Positions 30,222-37,419 of a DNA stretch of 64,000 nucleotides are shown in pieces. Source of the stretch: Deltaproteobacteria bacterium (GTDB taxonomy: Bacteria > Desulfobacterota > Desulfuromonadia > Desulfuromonadales > Geopsychrobacteraceae); assembly GCA_018399135.1 (NCBI GenBank), contig JAGYPB010000009.1:1-64000 (forward strand). Direction: 5' to 3'. Numbering within the stretch: position 1 is the first letter of the stretch; each line of letters opens with the position of its first letter. A model generated the notes under the pieces. The model made no database searches. It worked only from the letters and a program-made list of their open reading frames with translations, and was not told where the DNA came from. Made by a program: the position numbers and the translations under genes.

Positions 30222-31841
30222 CTAGAGGCCCAGCTTTTTGAAAAAGTCGTTACCTTTGTCATCTACTAGAATGAAGGCCGGGAAGTCAACGACATCAATC
30301 TTCCATACTGCTTCCATTCCCAGTTCGGGGAAATCGATACACTCGACCTTCTTGATGTTCTCTTCCGCAAGAACGGCAGCCGGGCCACCAATGGAGCCAA
30401 GATAGAAGCCGCCATGTTTGGCACAAGCGTCCGTAACCTGCTGGCTGCGGTTGCCTTTGGCAATCATTACCATGGAGCCGCCGTTGCTCTGGAGTAAGCC
30501 AACATAGCTGTCCATGCGCCCGGCTGTGGTCGGGCCGAAGGAGCCGGAGGCTTTGCCGGATGGGGTTTTTGCCGGGCCGGCATAGTAGATCGGGTGCTGT
30601 TTCAGGTAGTCCGGTAGAGGCTTGCCACTATCTAGAATTTCCTTGAACTTTGAGTGGGCAATATCTCGACCTACGACGATTGTTCCATCAAGTAGCAGAG
30701 GGGCTCCAACCTCAAGCTTGGAGAGGTCAGCAAGAATCTCCGGCATCGGGCGGTTGAGGTCAATACGGGTTCCCTGACTGGTTTTGCCACGATATTTTTC
30801 CGGAATCAGGCGCCCGGGATTACGATCCATTTCTTCAACAAAAAGGCCGTCGCGGGTGATCTTGGCTTTGATGTTACGATCCGCCGAACAGGAAACCGCC
30901 ATGCCGACGGGGCAGGAGGCGCCATGGCGCGGCAGTCGGATGACGCGCACATCATGAGCGAAATACTTGCCGCCAAATTGGGCACCGATGCCAAGCTCCT
31001 GGGCCGCCTTGAGGAGCTTTTCTTCGAGTTCAATGTCACGGAAGGCTTGTCCATGGTCATTGCCGCTGGTCGGGAGACCATCAAGGTAGCGAGCGGTTGC
31101 CAGCTTGACAGTTTTCATGCAGGCATCGGCTGAAGTGCCGCCGATAACAAAGGCCAGATGATAGGGCGGACAGGCAGCGGTGCCGATCGTTTTCATCTTC
31201 TGGACGAGGAAATTATAGAGGGAATCAGGGTTGAGAAGAGCCTTGGTTTCCTGATAGAGCATGGTTTTGTTGGCCGAGCCACCACCCTTGGCAATAAAAA
31301 GAAATTTGTAGGCATCTCCATCCGTAGCGTAAATGTCTATTTGAGCCGGAAGGTTGGTGCCGGTATTTTTTTCCGTATACATATCAAGGGCGACAGTCTG
31401 ACTGTATCGCAGGTTTTCCTCTGTGTAGGTTTTGAATACTCCAGCAGAAATCAATACGGCGTCGTTGCAGCCGGTCCAGACCTGCTGACCTTTTTTGGCG
31501 ACAACGGTAGCGGTACCGGTGTCCTGGCAGGTTGGCAGTTCGAACATGGCAGAAATTTCGGCGTTGCGTAAAAAGGCCATCGCTACTCCGCGATCATTAT
31601 CGCTGGCTTCCGGATCGCTGAGAATTTTCGCAACTTGTTCATTGTGTTCAGGCCGTAGCAGGAAGGAGACATCGCGCATGGCGACATTGGATAGCAGTTT
31701 CAGCGCCTCAGGATCAACTTTGATGACCTCTTTGCCGTCAAAATTTGAGACACTGACATATTTTTCAGAACCTTCAATTTTATAATACTTGGTGGTGTCT
31801 GTTCCCATCGGCATGGGATCCTGGTAGGTGAACTCCGGCAT
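30222..31841 (-). CDS. fumarate hydratase, class I (4Fe-4S)
   Basis: Interconverts fumarate and malate in the TCA cycle using an oxygen-sensitive 4Fe-4S cluster. A single-chain FumA-type enzyme of 539 residues. The cluster cysteines lie in [28 protein letters not shown] and further on. The C-terminal beta domain has TTAGRMDSY and the conserved tail [21 protein letters not shown] lies before the ATG. A perfect TATAAT (minus strand, 31872-31877) and a GGCCA-atg-TGGCC palindrome lie upstream and could be its promoter and operator. Monocistronic by position. Confidence 0.95.
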
Positions 31842-31994: not shown

Positions 31995-32051
31995 AGGTAT
32001 GAATACCTGACTGTTTCTCTTGAAAAGAAATTGACAGAAACAGTCAGGTAT
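31995..32051 (+). promoter_or_regulatory. two abutting IscR type-1-like operator sites
   Basis: ATACCTGACTG (32003-32013) and CAGTCAGGTAT (32041-32051) each match a half of the Escherichia coli IscR type 1 consensus (ATASYYGACTRWWWYAGTCRRSTAT) at all 11 positions. They lie too far apart to be one site. Each can instead be the outer half of a 25-bp site: 32003-32027, and 32027-32051 (GAAATTGACAG-AAA-CAGTCAGGTAT). Together they form a 16-bp perfect inverted repeat with a 17-nt centre. A third half, AGGTAT, at 31995-32000 makes AGGTAT-GA-ATACCT. The IscR-like gene is in the operon downstream. Confidence 0.65.
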
Positions 32052-32057
32052 GATAGT
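32031..32057 (+). promoter_or_regulatory. candidate promoter of the cysE-isc operon
   Basis: TTGACA (32031-32036) with GATAGT (32052-32057), spacing 15. The -35 lies inside the right-hand IscR-like site, the usual geometry for repression. The spacing is short, so the -10 assignment is tentative. Confidence 0.5.
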
Positions 32058-32139
32058 GGTTCGAGTCAGATTGAAGAGTATATGTCAGTATTTGTCCGGT
32101 TTTGTGTCTTGCCATCGCGGTGTATTCAGGAGGTTGTTC

Positions 32140-32838
32140 ATGCTCGTTTTTTTAAAAGATGATATCAGGGCAGTTTTTGATCGCGATCCGGCTGTACGTA
32201 GTGTTTTTGAAGTGATTTTCTGTTACCCCGGTTTTCATGCCATGCTGTTTTATCGTCTTTCCCACTGGTTGTGGGGCAAGAAACGAACCTTTATGGGACG
32301 CTATGTTTCTCACCTTGGGCGCTTTTTCACCGGTATTGAGATCCATCCCGGCGCCAAAATCGGTCGCGGTTTTTTTATTGATCATGGCATGGGGGTTGTG
32401 ATTGGTGAAACGGCTGAAATCGGTGATAATTGTACCCTTTACCATGGAGTCACCCTGGGAGGGACGTCCTGGGCCAAAGAGAAGCGTCATCCGACCCTGG
32501 GCAACAATGTGGTCGTCGGCGCCGGAGCGAAAATTCTTGGACCCTTCAAGGTTGGTGATGATAGCAAGGTTGGTTCCAATTCCGTTGTGGTCAAAGAGGT
32601 TCCAGCTATGGCGACGGTGGTTGGCATCCCTGGGCGGGTGGTTCTGTCCGGTGAAAAACGGGTCGGTGTCGATTTACAGCATGGTGAATTACCTGACCCT
32701 GTGGCTAAGGCGGTGAGCTGCGTGTTTGATCAGATTCAACGACTCGAGGAGCAAGTGGACAGTTTGCGCCAGGAGCAAGGTAAGCTCAAGACTGAGTTGG
32801 CACAGTATCGGGCTGATGAGGAGGACACGGTTTCATGA
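32140..32838 (+). CDS. cysE: serine O-acetyltransferase
   Basis: Makes O-acetylserine, the first step of cysteine synthesis. The ORF track starts at 32050 inside the operator. AGGAGG before the ATG at 32140 gives [18 protein letters not shown] and 232 residues. The left-handed beta-helix hexapeptide repeats are clear ([52 protein letters not shown]). A 40-residue coiled-coil tail ([20 protein letters not shown]) follows. First gene of an operon that links sulfur assimilation to Fe-S assembly; its stop overlaps the iscR start. Confidence 0.95.
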
Positions 32839-33281
32839 GATTGTCAACCAAAGCTCAGTATGCAGTACGTGCTCTGGTGAGTTTGAATCTGACCAGTGAT
32901 GGCCATCCGGTGACCATCAAGGATATCTCTGCGCGCGAAAATATTTCACTGAATTATCTGGAACAGCTTTTTGTCAAGCTTAGACGTGGAGATATTGTCA
33001 AAAGTGTCCGGGGTCCCGGTGGTGGTTATCTGCTGGCGCGCGCAGCCAATCAGATAAGCGTGGACCAGATTGTTGATACGGTTGAGGAAATTCTCGTGCC
33101 GGTGTCCTGTATGAACGATGACGGCAGCTGTGGTTGCGATCTGGAATGTGCGACCCAGTCGGTATGGCAGGGTCTCGGCAATCAGATTCGAAATTTCCTT
33201 GCCTCCTTGACCCTGGAAGATCTGACCACAGATGCCCGTCGTCGTCTCGACCAACAGAGCCGTGAGAAGGCTTCCCTTTAA
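32835..33281 (+). CDS. iscR: Rrf2-family Fe-S regulator (IscR-like)
   Basis: 148 residues. The N-terminal winged helix [17 protein letters not shown] and the recognition region [32 protein letters not shown] are typical of IscR/CymR. The cluster-binding loop reads [14 protein letters not shown], with three cysteines near positions 92-104 as in IscR plus one more, so Fe-S sensing is likely. The start overlaps the cysE stop (ATGA). It is expected to bind the tandem sites upstream of cysE. CymR-like sensing through CysK is an alternative. Confidence 0.9.
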
Positions 33282-33319: not shown

Positions 33320-34540
33320 GTGAAGCAGATTTATCTCGATAACAATGCAACAACAGCGGTCAAGCCGGAAGTTCTGGAGGCTATGCTTCCTTATTTTCGT
33401 GAGCAGTTTGGCAACCCTTCCAGTGTTCATTGGGCCGGCCGCATGGTCAGTGGTGCCATTGAAAAGGCCCGCGAACAGGTGGCGGAACTGCTGAATTGTT
33501 CCCCGGCTGAAATCATTTTTGTTTCTTGCGGCAGTGAAGGCGATAATTTTGCTATTAAAGGGACTGCCGAAGCGTTGCGGCACAAGGGGAATCATATTAT
33601 CACCACAACGGTGGAACATCCTGCCGTATTGGAAACCTGTGAGTATCTTGAAAAAAATGGCTTTGAGGTGACTTATCTACCGGTCGATAAAGACGGCATG
33701 CTTGATCTGGCTGAACTGGAAGCCGCTATTACCGACAAGACGGTTCTCATTTCGGTCATGTGGGCCAACAACGAAACCGGTAATCTTTTCCCCATTCACG
33801 CCATTGGTGAGATTGCCAGTCGCCATAAGGTGCGCTTTCACACTGATGCGGTTCAGGCCATCGGCAAGGTGCCGGTTGATGTGAAAGCTGCCAAAGTTGA
33901 TATGCTGGTATTGTCAGGCCATAAAATTGGTGCGCCCAAGGGGATTGGTGCTCTTTATTTGCGTCGCGGTACGCGCATGACGCGTTTTATGCACGGTGGT
34001 CATCAGGAACGCAATCGTCGCGCCGGAACCCATAATGTTGCCGGTATTGTCGGTCTCGGAGTGGCTTGTGAACTGGCTCGTCTTCATCAGGAAAAAGATT
34101 ATGTCTCTGTTCGTCGCCTGCGCGATAAGCTTGAGCGGGGGATTCTCAGTACGGTTCCCGACGTTAAACTCAATGGCCATCCAGACCCTGATCTGCGCCT
34201 GCCCAACACCCTTAATGTCAGTTTTAATTTCATCGAAGGGGAATCGTTGTTGTTGTTTTTTGATATGAAAGGGATTGCCGCTTCCTCTGGTTCTGCCTGT
34301 ACGTCCGGTTCGTTGGAACCCTCCCACGTGATGCAGGCCATGGGGGTGGATATTGTTCTTGCTCACTCTAGTGTTCGGTTCAGTTTAAGTGCAGAAAATA
34401 CCGAGGACGAGATTGATTATATTCTCGCCGAGCTTCCCCCGATTGTTCAGCGCTTGCGTGATATGAGCCCACTTTACCAACGTGAAGAACCGACCCCGCT
34501 GCACTGTGATGAGTGCCGGATGGTACATAAAGCCAGCTGA
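33320..34540 (+). CDS. iscS: cysteine desulfurase (NifS/IscS)
   Basis: A PLP enzyme that takes sulfur from cysteine as a persulfide for Fe-S clusters and tRNA thiolation. GTG start, 8 nt after GGAGG; 406 residues. Key features are YLDNNATT, ANNETG, the PLP lysine in LSGHKIGAPKG, and the active-site Cys in SSGSACTSGSLEPSHV. After the usual end it has a short tail with LHCDECRMVH, a possible extra metal or thiol site. iscU lies 54 nt downstream and mnmA further on, the natural sulfur acceptors. Confidence 0.95.
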   Translation: MKQIYLDNNATTAVKPEVLEAMLPYFREQFGNPSSVHWAGRMVSGAIEKAREQVAELLNCSPAEIIFVSCGSEGDNFAIKGTAEALRHKGNHIITTTVEHPAVLETCEYLEKNGFEVTYLPVDKDGMLDLAELEAAITDKTVLISVMWANNETGNLFPIHAIGEIASRHKVRFHTDAVQAIGKVPVDVKAAKVDMLVLSGHKIGAPKGIGALYLRRGTRMTRFMHGGHQERNRRAGTHNVAGIVGLGVACELARLHQEKDYVSVRRLRDKLERGILSTVPDVKLNGHPDPDLRLPNTLNVSFNFIEGESLLLFFDMKGIAASSGSACTSGSLEPSHVMQAMGVDIVLAHSSVRFSLSAENTEDEIDYILAELPPIVQRLRDMSPLYQREEPTPLHCDECRMVHKAS

Positions 34541-34594: not shown

Positions 34595-34963
34595 ATGTAC
34601 ACAGAAAAAGTCATGGATCATTTCAGCAACCCACGCAATGTTGGAGAGATCGAAAACGCTAACGGGGTCGGTGAAGTTGGCAATGCCTCTTGTGGCGATA
34701 TCATGAAGATCTATCTGCAGGTTGAAGGTGACATCATTAAGGATGTCAAATTCAAGACCTTTGGTTGCGGAGCGGCCATAGCCACCTCCTCTATGGTAAC
34801 GGAGCTCGCCATCGGCAAAACCCTCGACGAGGCATTGGTGTTGACCAATCAAGCTGTTGCTGAAGCCCTTGACGGTCTGCCTCCGGCCAAAATGCACTGT
34901 TCCAATCTAGCCGCCGATGCCTTGCATGAAGCGATCAAGGATTACAAGGCCAAAAATTCCTGA
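34595..34963 (+). CDS. iscU: Fe-S cluster assembly scaffold (IscU/NifU N-terminal type)
   Basis: The scaffold on which iron and persulfide sulfur are assembled into 2Fe-2S/4Fe-4S clusters. 122 residues with the three ligand cysteines in GNASCGD, FGCGAAIA and AKMHCSNLA, and the start MYTEKVMDHFSNPRNVGEIE. It consists only of the U-domain, without the NifU ferredoxin or Nfu domains. The HscA-binding LPPVK of IscU appears as LPPAK. GGAGA precedes the ATG. A hairpin terminator follows at 34998-35022. Confidence 0.95.
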   Translation: MYTEKVMDHFSNPRNVGEIENANGVGEVGNASCGDIMKIYLQVEGDIIKDVKFKTFGCGAAIATSSMVTELAIGKTLDEALVLTNQAVAEALDGLPPAKMHCSNLAADALHEAIKDYKAKNS

Positions 34964-34997: not shown

Positions 34998-35022
34998 GGC
35001 TCCGCTTATGCCGGGGCCTTTT
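34998..35022 (+). terminator. short terminator-like hairpin between iscU and mnmA
   Basis: GGCTCCG pairs with CGGGGCC (one wobble), loop 7 nt, followed by TTTT. The T-run is short, so partial read-through into mnmA is plausible. Confidence 0.6.
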
Positions 35023-35035
35023 GTCTGAGGTGGGT

Positions 35036-36112
35036 GTGAAAAAACGTGTTGTAGTCGCCATGAGTGGTGGTGTCGATTCCTCAGTAACAGCTGCACTGCT
35101 GAAAGAACAGGGGTATGAGGTTGTCGGTATGACCATGCAGATCTGGGATTATTCTCTGTATACTGATCAACATGGTGAAACCTTCGGCAGTTGCTGTTCT
35201 CTTGATGATGTCTACGATGCCAGACGCGTCGCCGAGCAGCTTGATATTCCCTTTTATGTTATCAATTTTGAAAAACAATTTAAGCAGCAGGTGATTGATC
35301 GTTTTTGTGATGACTATCTTGCCGGCTTGACCCCCAATCCCTGTGTTCTATGCAATCAGGTGCTCAAATTTGAGTTGTTGATGCGTAAGGCGCGTGAACT
35401 CGAAGCGGACTTTCTGGCGACTGGACACTATGCGCAGATTATTGCCGGCGCTGATGGTAGCTACGCTCTGCACAAAGGGATCGATGGCGACAAGGATCAG
35501 AGTTACTTCCTTTTTACTCTGACCAGGGAGCAGATGGCGCAAGTGCGTTTTCCTTTAGGTGGTATGACCAAGGAAGAGGTGAGGGGACATGCGGCGCGCT
35601 TTAATCTGCGTGTCGCCGAAAAGGCTGAAAGTCAGGATATCTGTTTTGTCCCCGATGGTGATTATGTACGTTTTTTGGAGGAAGAGCGGCAACTTGATGA
35701 TTGCGCCGGCCCGATTGTCCATATCAGGGGGCAGGTGCTTGGGCAACATCAGGGCTACTACCGTTATACGGTTGGTCAGCGCAAAGGTTTAGGTGTCGGC
35801 TGGAGTGAGCCCCTTTACGTGATCCGTATCGATGCTGCTAACAAGACGGTTTTCGTCGGTGAAAAACAGCACCTGCTGTGTCAGGAAATGCTTGTTGGCA
35901 GCTGTCTGTGGAGCATTGAACCACCACAACAACCTTTTGTGGTCGACTGTCGGATCCGCTATCGTCAGCACGAACAACCGGCGCAGGTTGTTCCTCTGGT
36001 TGATGGGCGCATTAAAGTGATTTTTTTGACTCCCCAGGCCGGGGTGACACCGGGACAGGCAGCCGTGTTCTATCGGGGGGATCGCGTACTGGGGGGGGGA
36101 TGGATACAGTAA
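35036..36112 (+). CDS. mnmA: tRNA-specific 2-thiouridylase
   Basis: Adds sulfur to U34 of Lys, Glu and Gln tRNAs. The TTG start in the ORF track (35021) falls in the preceding terminator. GTG 35036, 5 nt after GAGG, gives MKKRVVVAMSGGVDSS and 358 residues. The PP-loop SGGVDSS, catalytic Cys in NPCVLCNQ, second Cys in SQDICFVPDGDY and the C-terminal beta-barrel are present. Sulfur probably comes from the upstream IscS. The last 13 nt overlap mtaB, so both tRNA-modifying enzymes are coupled. Confidence 0.95.
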   Translation: MKKRVVVAMSGGVDSSVTAALLKEQGYEVVGMTMQIWDYSLYTDQHGETFGSCCSLDDVYDARRVAEQLDIPFYVINFEKQFKQQVIDRFCDDYLAGLTPNPCVLCNQVLKFELLMRKARELEADFLATGHYAQIIAGADGSYALHKGIDGDKDQSYFLFTLTREQMAQVRFPLGGMTKEEVRGHAARFNLRVAEKAESQDICFVPDGDYVRFLEEERQLDDCAGPIVHIRGQVLGQHQGYYRYTVGQRKGLGVGWSEPLYVIRIDAANKTVFVGEKQHLLCQEMLVGSCLWSIEPPQQPFVVDCRIRYRQHEQPAQVVPLVDGRIKVIFLTPQAGVTPGQAAVFYRGDRVLGGGWIQ

Positions 36113-37419
36113 CCAGGTCAGTGGCGATAGTCACCCTCGGTTGTAAGACTAACCAGTTTGAATCAGCGGCTATGCTTGAACAATTGACCGGCAACGGTTA
36201 TCACCAGGTAGATCTCGACGCTGGAGCTGATCTGGTGATCGTCAATACCTGTACGGTGACGGCGGCCACTGATTCCCAGTCGCGTAATATCATCCGCCGC
36301 GTGCAGCGTTCTAACCCGTCAGCGCAGATTGTTGTCACCGGTTGTTACGCCCAGATTAATCCCGACGAGTTACAAAAACTCCCCGGTGTAAATCTGATTA
36401 TCGGTAATGAAGAGAAAAAGGAATTGATGCGTCTGCTGGCGCATACACAACAGAACGATCGAAGCAAAACCACCACGCTGGTGACTGATATTCGTGCCGT
36501 CCAATACTGTGCCCCCCTTGATCTTCATACCTTCGCCCAGCGCAGCCGCGCCTTTGTCCAGATCCAGAACGGCTGTGATGCCTTCTGTTCCTACTGCATC
36601 ATCCCCTATGCCCGCGGTGCCAGTCGTTCGGTTCCGGTTGAGCAGGTTGTAGCCCAGATCAAGCGTCTGGAGGCGAACGGTTATCGTGAAATTGTACTGA
36701 CCGGTATCCACATTGGTGGTTATGGCCGGGATTTTGTGGATGGTACCAGTTTGCTGACCCTATTGCAGGCGATAGCGGCCAGTGAGTATACCGGTCGCGT
36801 GCGCTTAGGCTCGATTGAGCCGACGGAGCTGTCCCTTGATCTGCGCGATTATCTCGATCAGGCTGCGTGGGTTTGTCCTCATCTGCACATTCCCCTGCAG
36901 GCCGGTGATGACGAGATTCTGCGACGAATGAATCGCCACTACGATACTGCTTTTTTTATCGATCTGCTGGCTGATCTGCAGCGGCGCAATCCCGCTATGG
37001 CGATTGGGCTTGATGTGATTTGCGGGTTTCCCGGTGAGTCGGAGGAGCACTTTGCCCGGACTTTTGAACTGTTACAGCACCTGTCTTTCAGTCATCTTCA
37101 TGTTTTTCCCTTCAGTCGCAGACCCGGTACCCCGGCGGAGACCATGCCCGATCATGTCGCTCCAGCGCTGATAAAAGAGCGTGCCGCCAGATTGCGCGTG
37201 TTGGGAAAAGAAAAATTGCAGCAGTTCAGCCGTCGTTTTGTCGGCACGGAATTGCTAATGCTGGTCGAAGGGGGGGTCAGTAACGGTAGGCGCAAAGGGT
37301 TATCGGAGAACTATCTGACCTTGTTGATCGATCAGCACCAGGCACAACCGGGGGAACTTTGCCTGGTGCGGGTAACTGATCAGCTGGCTGATGAGCTGAA
37401 AGTCGAGCGCCTTGACTGA
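36100..37419 (+). CDS. mtaB: threonylcarbamoyladenosine tRNA methylthiotransferase
   Basis: A radical SAM enzyme that converts t6A37 to ms2t6A37 in tRNAs reading ANN codons. 439 residues with MTTase cysteines in TLGCKTNQFES, VNTCTVT and TGCYAQ, and the radical SAM motif CDAFCSYC. The sequence TLGCKTNQFES and the IIPYARG stretch separate MtaB from MiaB and RimO. A G-rich Shine-Dalgarno sits inside the end of mnmA. Its substrate modification depends on TsaD, encoded at 42.7 kb. Its stop abuts the convergent CxxCxxCC gene with no spacer. Confidence 0.93.
   Translation: MDTVTRSVAIVTLGCKTNQFESAAMLEQLTGNGYHQVDLDAGADLVIVNTCTVTAATDSQSRNIIRRVQRSNPSAQIVVTGCYAQINPDELQKLPGVNLIIGNEEKKELMRLLAHTQQNDRSKTTTLVTDIRAVQYCAPLDLHTFAQRSRAFVQIQNGCDAFCSYCIIPYARGASRSVPVEQVVAQIKRLEANGYREIVLTGIHIGGYGRDFVDGTSLLTLLQAIAASEYTGRVRLGSIEPTELSLDLRDYLDQAAWVCPHLHIPLQAGDDEILRRMNRHYDTAFFIDLLADLQRRNPAMAIGLDVICGFPGESEEHFARTFELLQHLSFSHLHVFPFSRRPGTPAETMPDHVAPALIKERAARLRVLGKEKLQQFSRRFVGTELLMLVEGGVSNGRRKGLSENYLTLLIDQHQAQPGELCLVRVTDQLADELKVERLD

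Follow-up and report, generated by a model that had tools for sequence, protein, structure and literature searches.

In Escherichia coli, reduced [2Fe-2S]-IscR represses isc at type 1 sites (PMC12594620). Two such 25-bp sites lie side by side in the E. coli iscR promoter, ATACCCGACTAAATCAGTCAAGTAA directly followed by ATAGTTGACCAATTTACTCGGGAAT, and the autorepressor is encoded in the operon that they control. The isc promoter of Pseudomonas aeruginosa has footprinted sites A (-67 to -43) and B (-42 to -18) (PMC6599224), which match the consensus at 68% and 76% (PMC3899308). IscR binds B first, as the primary site, and then A, as the minor one, and both add to repression; mutations in B lead to strong derepression and mutations in A to slight derepression, and cluster ligation is required (PMC6599224). 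In Myxococcus xanthus, a former deltaproteobacterium, Fe-S assembly genes are repressed by RisR, an Rrf2 regulator that is reported to be phylogenetically distant from IscR and to have diverged DNA sites (PMC9973013).

Here, we describe a related locus in the Desulfuromonadales. Within the 64-kb window (the whole stretch of DNA that was analysed), we read positions 32003-32051 as the operator-promoter of cysE-iscR-iscS-iscU-mnmA-mtaB, probably repressed by the operon's own cluster-loaded Rrf2 protein (probability roughly 0.85). The two-site layout is already known and fairly ordinary, and the architecture in the window is not unusual because E. coli and P. aeruginosa share it. What is new is the lineage: its version of the known autoregulated IscR promoter with two sites also takes in cysE, and known biology explains it well. 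The Desulfuromonadales thus share the two-site type 1 architecture of Gammaproteobacteria, and the proximal site hardly varies within the order. The serine acetyltransferase gene lies within the controlled operon, which offers a concrete and testable connection between the supply of cysteine and the demand for Fe-S in bacteria that reduce iron and sulfur and rely heavily on Fe-S proteins. A literature search that covered few subscription journals found no published description for Desulfuromonadales.

The proposed operator-promoter and its operon

The features of the locus are as follows.

30222-31841, minus strand: class I (Fe-S type) fumarase, divergent and upstream, sharing its intergenic region with the operator
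32003-32051, unstranded: 16-bp perfect inverted repeat with arms 32003-32018 and 32036-32051
32003-32027, plus strand: site A, distal type 1-like IscR site, ATACCTGACTG TTT CTCTTGAAAAG, 19/25, outer half perfect
32027-32051, plus strand: site B, proximal type 1-like IscR site, GAAATTGACAG AAA CAGTCAGGTAT, 21/25, overlapping the promoter
32031-32036, plus strand: -35 element TTGACA inside site B, TTGAC 99-100% and the last A 89% conserved (113 aligned loci)
32051-32059, plus strand: predicted extended -10, TGA-TAGTGG, 17-bp spacer to the -35, conserved only in the TGnTA part
32128-32133, plus strand: Shine-Dalgarno AGGAGG, 6 nt before the cysE ATG, read from the sequence
32140-32838, plus strand: cysE, serine O-acetyltransferase, first gene of the operon (TIGR01172, 255.9 bits, above the cut-off of 210.65)
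32835-33281, plus strand: iscR-like Rrf2 regulator gene, 4-bp overlap with cysE (TIGR00738, above cut-off)
33320-34540, plus strand: iscS/nifS-type cysteine desulfurase (TIGR03402, 597.9 bits, above cut-off)
34595-34963, plus strand: iscU/NifU-type scaffold (TIGR03419, 224.1 bits, above cut-off)
35021-36112, plus strand: mnmA, tRNA 2-thiouridine synthase (TIGR00420, 360.7 bits, above cut-off)
36100-37419, plus strand: mtaB, tRNA methylthiotransferase, a radical SAM Fe-S enzyme (TIGR01579, 466.1 bits, above cut-off)

The 11-mers at 32003-32013 (ATACCTGACTG) and 32041-32051 (CAGTCAGGTAT) each agree at 11 of 11 positions with an E. coli IscR type 1 half-site (ATASYYGACTR and YAGTCRRSTAT; consensus from PMC3899308) and are separated by 27 nt, just as a preliminary description of positions 31995-32057 had reported. 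They are the only perfect type 1 half-sites in the 64 kb, for which first-order Markov simulations give an expectation of 0.25, and a left-right pair of perfect halves no more than 60 nt apart occurred in 0 of 60 simulated windows. The 25-bp inverted motif of 11-3-11 form (ATASYYGACTRWWWYAGTCRRSTAT) is represented by positions 32027-32051 (21/25) and 32003-32027 (19/25), which rank first and second in the window against the E. coli consensus; the earlier identification as IscR type 1-like is supported. No 25-mer in the window matches the full palindromic consensus with three or fewer mismatches; known functional type 1 sites are similarly degenerate. The two 25-bp sites had been called abutting, and they do lie side by side, although not in strict abutment: base 32027 belongs to both, and the sites start 24 nt apart.

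The right-hand site covers a -35 element, as had been proposed, with TTGACA at 32031-32036. In the 113 aligned loci the T, G, T and A of TGnTA are each 99% conserved at their offsets from it. The -10 hexamer itself is weak and absent from the output of a consensus promoter scanner, so the -10 was assigned by conservation; on this evidence, the predicted promoter is fixed by the conserved -35, the 17-bp spacer and TGnTA. A further mark of type 1 sites is that they overlap promoters of Fe-S assembly operons, as is seen here, with TTGACA in site B, TGnTA at the 17-bp spacing and operon genes identified by NCBIfam.

The 16-bp inverted symmetry noted in the preliminary description is present and perfect, and is the only such repeat in the window with a gap of up to 40. 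The suggestion that its full length matters is not supported: only the outer 11-bp halves are kept beyond the genus and the inner TTTCT/AGAAA pairing is peculiar to the genus; the 16-bp symmetry was rejected as a functional unit because conservation is limited to the outer 11 bp. A third AGGTAT, at 31995, had been counted as part of the arrangement. It is missing from the three nearest relatives and was rejected as a third site, being unconserved in the genus.

The proximal site of E. coli has the same asymmetric form as that of the window, ATAGTTGACC...TACTCGGGAAT with a -35-like TTGACC inside. However, the E. coli sites lie closer to the consensus (24 and 22 of 25, compared with 19 and 21 in the window) and start 25 nt apart rather than 24, and E. 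coli has iscR as the first gene of an operon without cysE. P. aeruginosa shares with the window a strong promoter-proximal site B over the promoter and a weak distal site A abutting it, both of type 1. Autorepression is experimentally established in P. aeruginosa, where the promoter that was footprinted belongs to iscR itself (PMC3899308, PMC6599224), whereas that of the window precedes cysE. RisR resembles the window regulator as an Rrf2 Fe-S regulator that represses Fe-S assembly genes and has three conserved cysteines (PMC9973013), but the operator of the window is of the IscR type 1 kind, which sets it apart from RisR as described.

The order of the operon genes through mnmA is kept in most relatives, and cysE-iscR is found in 80 of 80 named loci. 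Site B precedes cysE, the first gene, and the earlier proposal that cysteine synthesis is placed under the same operator as the isc genes is supported. A divergent fumarase lies within the fetched DNA in 40 of those 80 loci, and co-regulation of the fumarase with the operon is possible. The intergenic region between fumarase and operator also holds a promoter-like TCGACA-17-TATAGT on the minus strand (31938-31910).

Conservation of the two sites

Of the 136 genomes of the order, 125 encode homologues of the regulator (E up to 1e-30), with cysE directly before the regulator gene in nearly all loci fetched; among named relatives, a Pelovirga terrestris strain and related MAGs are the closest. 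Within the 250 bp upstream of cysE, the top type 1 match reaches at least 20/25 in 110 of 116 distinct loci, compared with 1 of 2320 Markov control sequences of the same composition. Inside cysE, before iscR, the same scan found a match of at least 20/25 in 1 of the 116 loci only. Site B thus precedes cysE in nearly all Desulfuromonadales sampled, and its flanks are unconserved. Anchored alignment gives the consensus ATAaTTGACAgWWWyacTCaGGTATGnTA, in which the columns TTGAC, TC, GG, TATG and the following TA are 84-100% conserved and the columns beyond are at background level. With a family-derived pattern and up to three mismatches, site B is the sole match in the whole genome. Phylogenetic footprinting of relatives, which had been proposed as a check on the half-sites, accordingly found them conserved upstream of cysE-iscR, and the footprint over 116 distinct loci indicates that the operator pair is real and under selection.

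The site extends beyond the order. In other orders of the phylum it takes the form ATACTTGACAAAATTRATAAGGTAT or similar and stands immediately upstream of iscR at loci in which no cysE was found, and otherwise before cysE; several more distant homologues in the phylum survey showed no such site.

Site A has a narrower distribution. Its outer half (at least 9/11, 22-25 bp upstream of site B) is found in 28 of 113 anchored loci, compared with control scans that gave a score of 9 in 10 of 854 and a score of 10 or more in 0 of 854. All but one of the 28 belong to the family of the window (Pelovirga, Desulfuromusa, Malonomonas and neighbours), and over many genera of this family the outer 11 bp are invariant or nearly so, with unconserved sequence upstream. 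The inner half agrees with the consensus at 5 of 11 positions in the window and is degenerate in most loci, with a fuller site A in L030 (ATACCTGACAAAAATAGACAGTTAT, 22/25). The exception outside the family, L096, carries near-copies of site B in tandem within the 250 bp upstream of cysE, ATAGTTGACGCAATCACTCAGATTA then ATAGTTGACGCATTCACTCAGGTAT, with a period of 25 bp, and this two-site operator is apparently of separate origin.

Regulator and competing explanations

Over 133 residues, the window Rrf2 protein shares 42% identity with E. coli IscR, and the solved structures that match it best are those of IscR. It passes the rrf2 superfamily cut-off, and its best family match is TIGR02010 (IscR) at 149 bits, below the equivalog cut-off of 207.55, which is why we call it IscR-like. 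The cluster ligands C92, C98 and C104 are present in 121 of 121 homologues, including the window. The wing residue R59 (121/121) and E43, which discriminates type 1 sites in the apo form (120/121), are both kept in the window. The fourth ligand of E. coli IscR, H107, is Q in the window; among the 121 homologues, 80 have H and 35 have Q, and the two residues alternate across the order. Homologues in the order also commonly carry an additional Cys two positions after C98 (CxC). Given the change at H107 and the extra Cys, cluster ligation may differ from that of E. coli IscR. The protein therefore falls outside formal E. coli-type IscR membership on two tested features, H107 and the TIGR02010 cut-off. 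Operator, context and ligands nevertheless suggest that it should work in an IscR-like manner.

In raw counts, loci with site A have Q at position 107 in 24 cases and H in 3, and loci without it have Q in 8 and H in 70. A tie between gain of site A and the H107 to Q change was rejected, given that site A needs no more than about four changes on a protein tree with few columns and long branches, and independent pairs fell short of significance. In other orders of the phylum, Q107 is frequent among relatives with a single site too, so shared ancestry is enough to account for the pattern.

Autoregulation, as anticipated in the preliminary description, is the likeliest function given the type 1 sites, the promoter overlap and the conservation before the iscR operon. 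The analysis shows the sites and their conservation, the overlap with the promoter, the gene order and the retention of the cysteines that ligate the cluster and of the residues that contact DNA. By analogy with the characterized systems, we infer binding, its dependence on the cluster, which way regulation runs and that site A acts as a helper. With an ample supply of clusters, the Fe-S-loaded Rrf2 protein would occupy site B (32027-32051), the predicted primary operator, and would shut out RNA polymerase, since site B covers the -35 and runs as far as the extended -10. A second dimer, probably aided by the first, would then bind the weaker site A (32003-32027) and tighten repression. Loss of clusters would lead to derepression, so that CysE, which belongs to the sulfur donor pathway, would rise together with IscS, IscU and the sulfur-using tRNA enzymes. 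The proposed division into a main operator B and an auxiliary A is drawn from the geometry shared with A and B of P. aeruginosa, by which analogy cooperativity between the sites is plausible. Points against this explanation are the TIGR02010 score (149 versus 207.55), Q107, the 5/11 inner half of site A and the weak -10.

Site B might also work by itself, with site A a relic or weak half-site and the two-site symmetry functionless. The absence of site A from most of the order, where site B is nearly universal, and its degenerate inner half would fit such a view, but a relic would not show an outer 11 bp that is near-invariant across many genera of the family, nor does the fuller 22/25 site of L030 suggest one, and we consider it unlikely. 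A sensor of cysteine or O-acetylserine, like CymR in Firmicutes, would make the operon mainly a cysteine-control unit. The position of cysE as first gene in nearly all loci examined is in keeping with this, and the CymR model (NF047409) also matches the regulator, albeit far below its equivalog cut-off (92.6 bits versus 195). However, the three cluster-ligand cysteines are invariant (121/121), the operator has the IscR type 1 form, the IscR model scores much higher than the CymR model (149 versus 92.6 bits) and the same operator persists in relatives that have no cysE at the locus; control by cysteine is hence quite improbable.

Four Rrf2 matches occur in the genome, three besides that of the operon, any of which might bind the operator instead. 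The linkage of the site to the operon's iscR in more than 110 loci, across several orders, makes this very improbable, and the remaining Rrf2 proteins are only distantly similar to that of the operon (39% identity for the L001 protein and 27% for L003). Although the inverted repeat is perfect over 16 bp, there is next to no chance that it is an RNA hairpin or terminator, or a product of chance: it lies upstream of the predicted transcription start, its inner part is unconserved, and simulation and conservation exclude chance. A terminator or hairpin was also rejected as a candidate because a scan found no terminator-like site. Repression by the operon's own cluster-loaded Rrf2 protein remains our preferred explanation.

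Further type 1-like sites

We tentatively picture an order-wide IscR-like circuit in Desulfuromonadales, in which cysE and cluster assembly would be under one type 1 operator, the Q107/CxC regulator of the window lineage may read the same site via a differently ligated cluster, and some genera would add tpx and a second nifS; this wider picture is possible, but on the doubtful side.

Further sites were sought by a family-wide pattern scan. Upstream of tpx (thiol peroxidase), type 1-like palindromes such as ATATCTGACAAAATTAGTCATATAT are found 53-58 bp before the start codon in Desulfuromusa and Malonomonas (L203-L209 and L214; tpx loci L219-L234), and no type 1-like site was found before tpx in the window's own genus. 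In P. aeruginosa, experiments have established tpx as a type 1 target of IscR (PMC6599224). In nine of the ten genomes with a gene for a second NifS-type cysteine desulfurase (L249-L251 and L253-L258, the exception being L252), that gene is preceded by a type 1-like site, ATAACAGACTATTTTTGTCAGATAT or a similar one, which lies immediately upstream of ATTGACC. In L001, a 19/25 type 1-like match with TTGACA (1956-1980) lies approximately 40 bp before the start of a second Rrf2 gene of the genome. Finally, in two genera (L211 and L212, around position 2501), a type 1-like site (in L211, ATAGTTGACAAAAATAGTCAGAGAT as read on the minus strand) is located approximately 50 bp before an rpsD-like ribosomal S4 gene.
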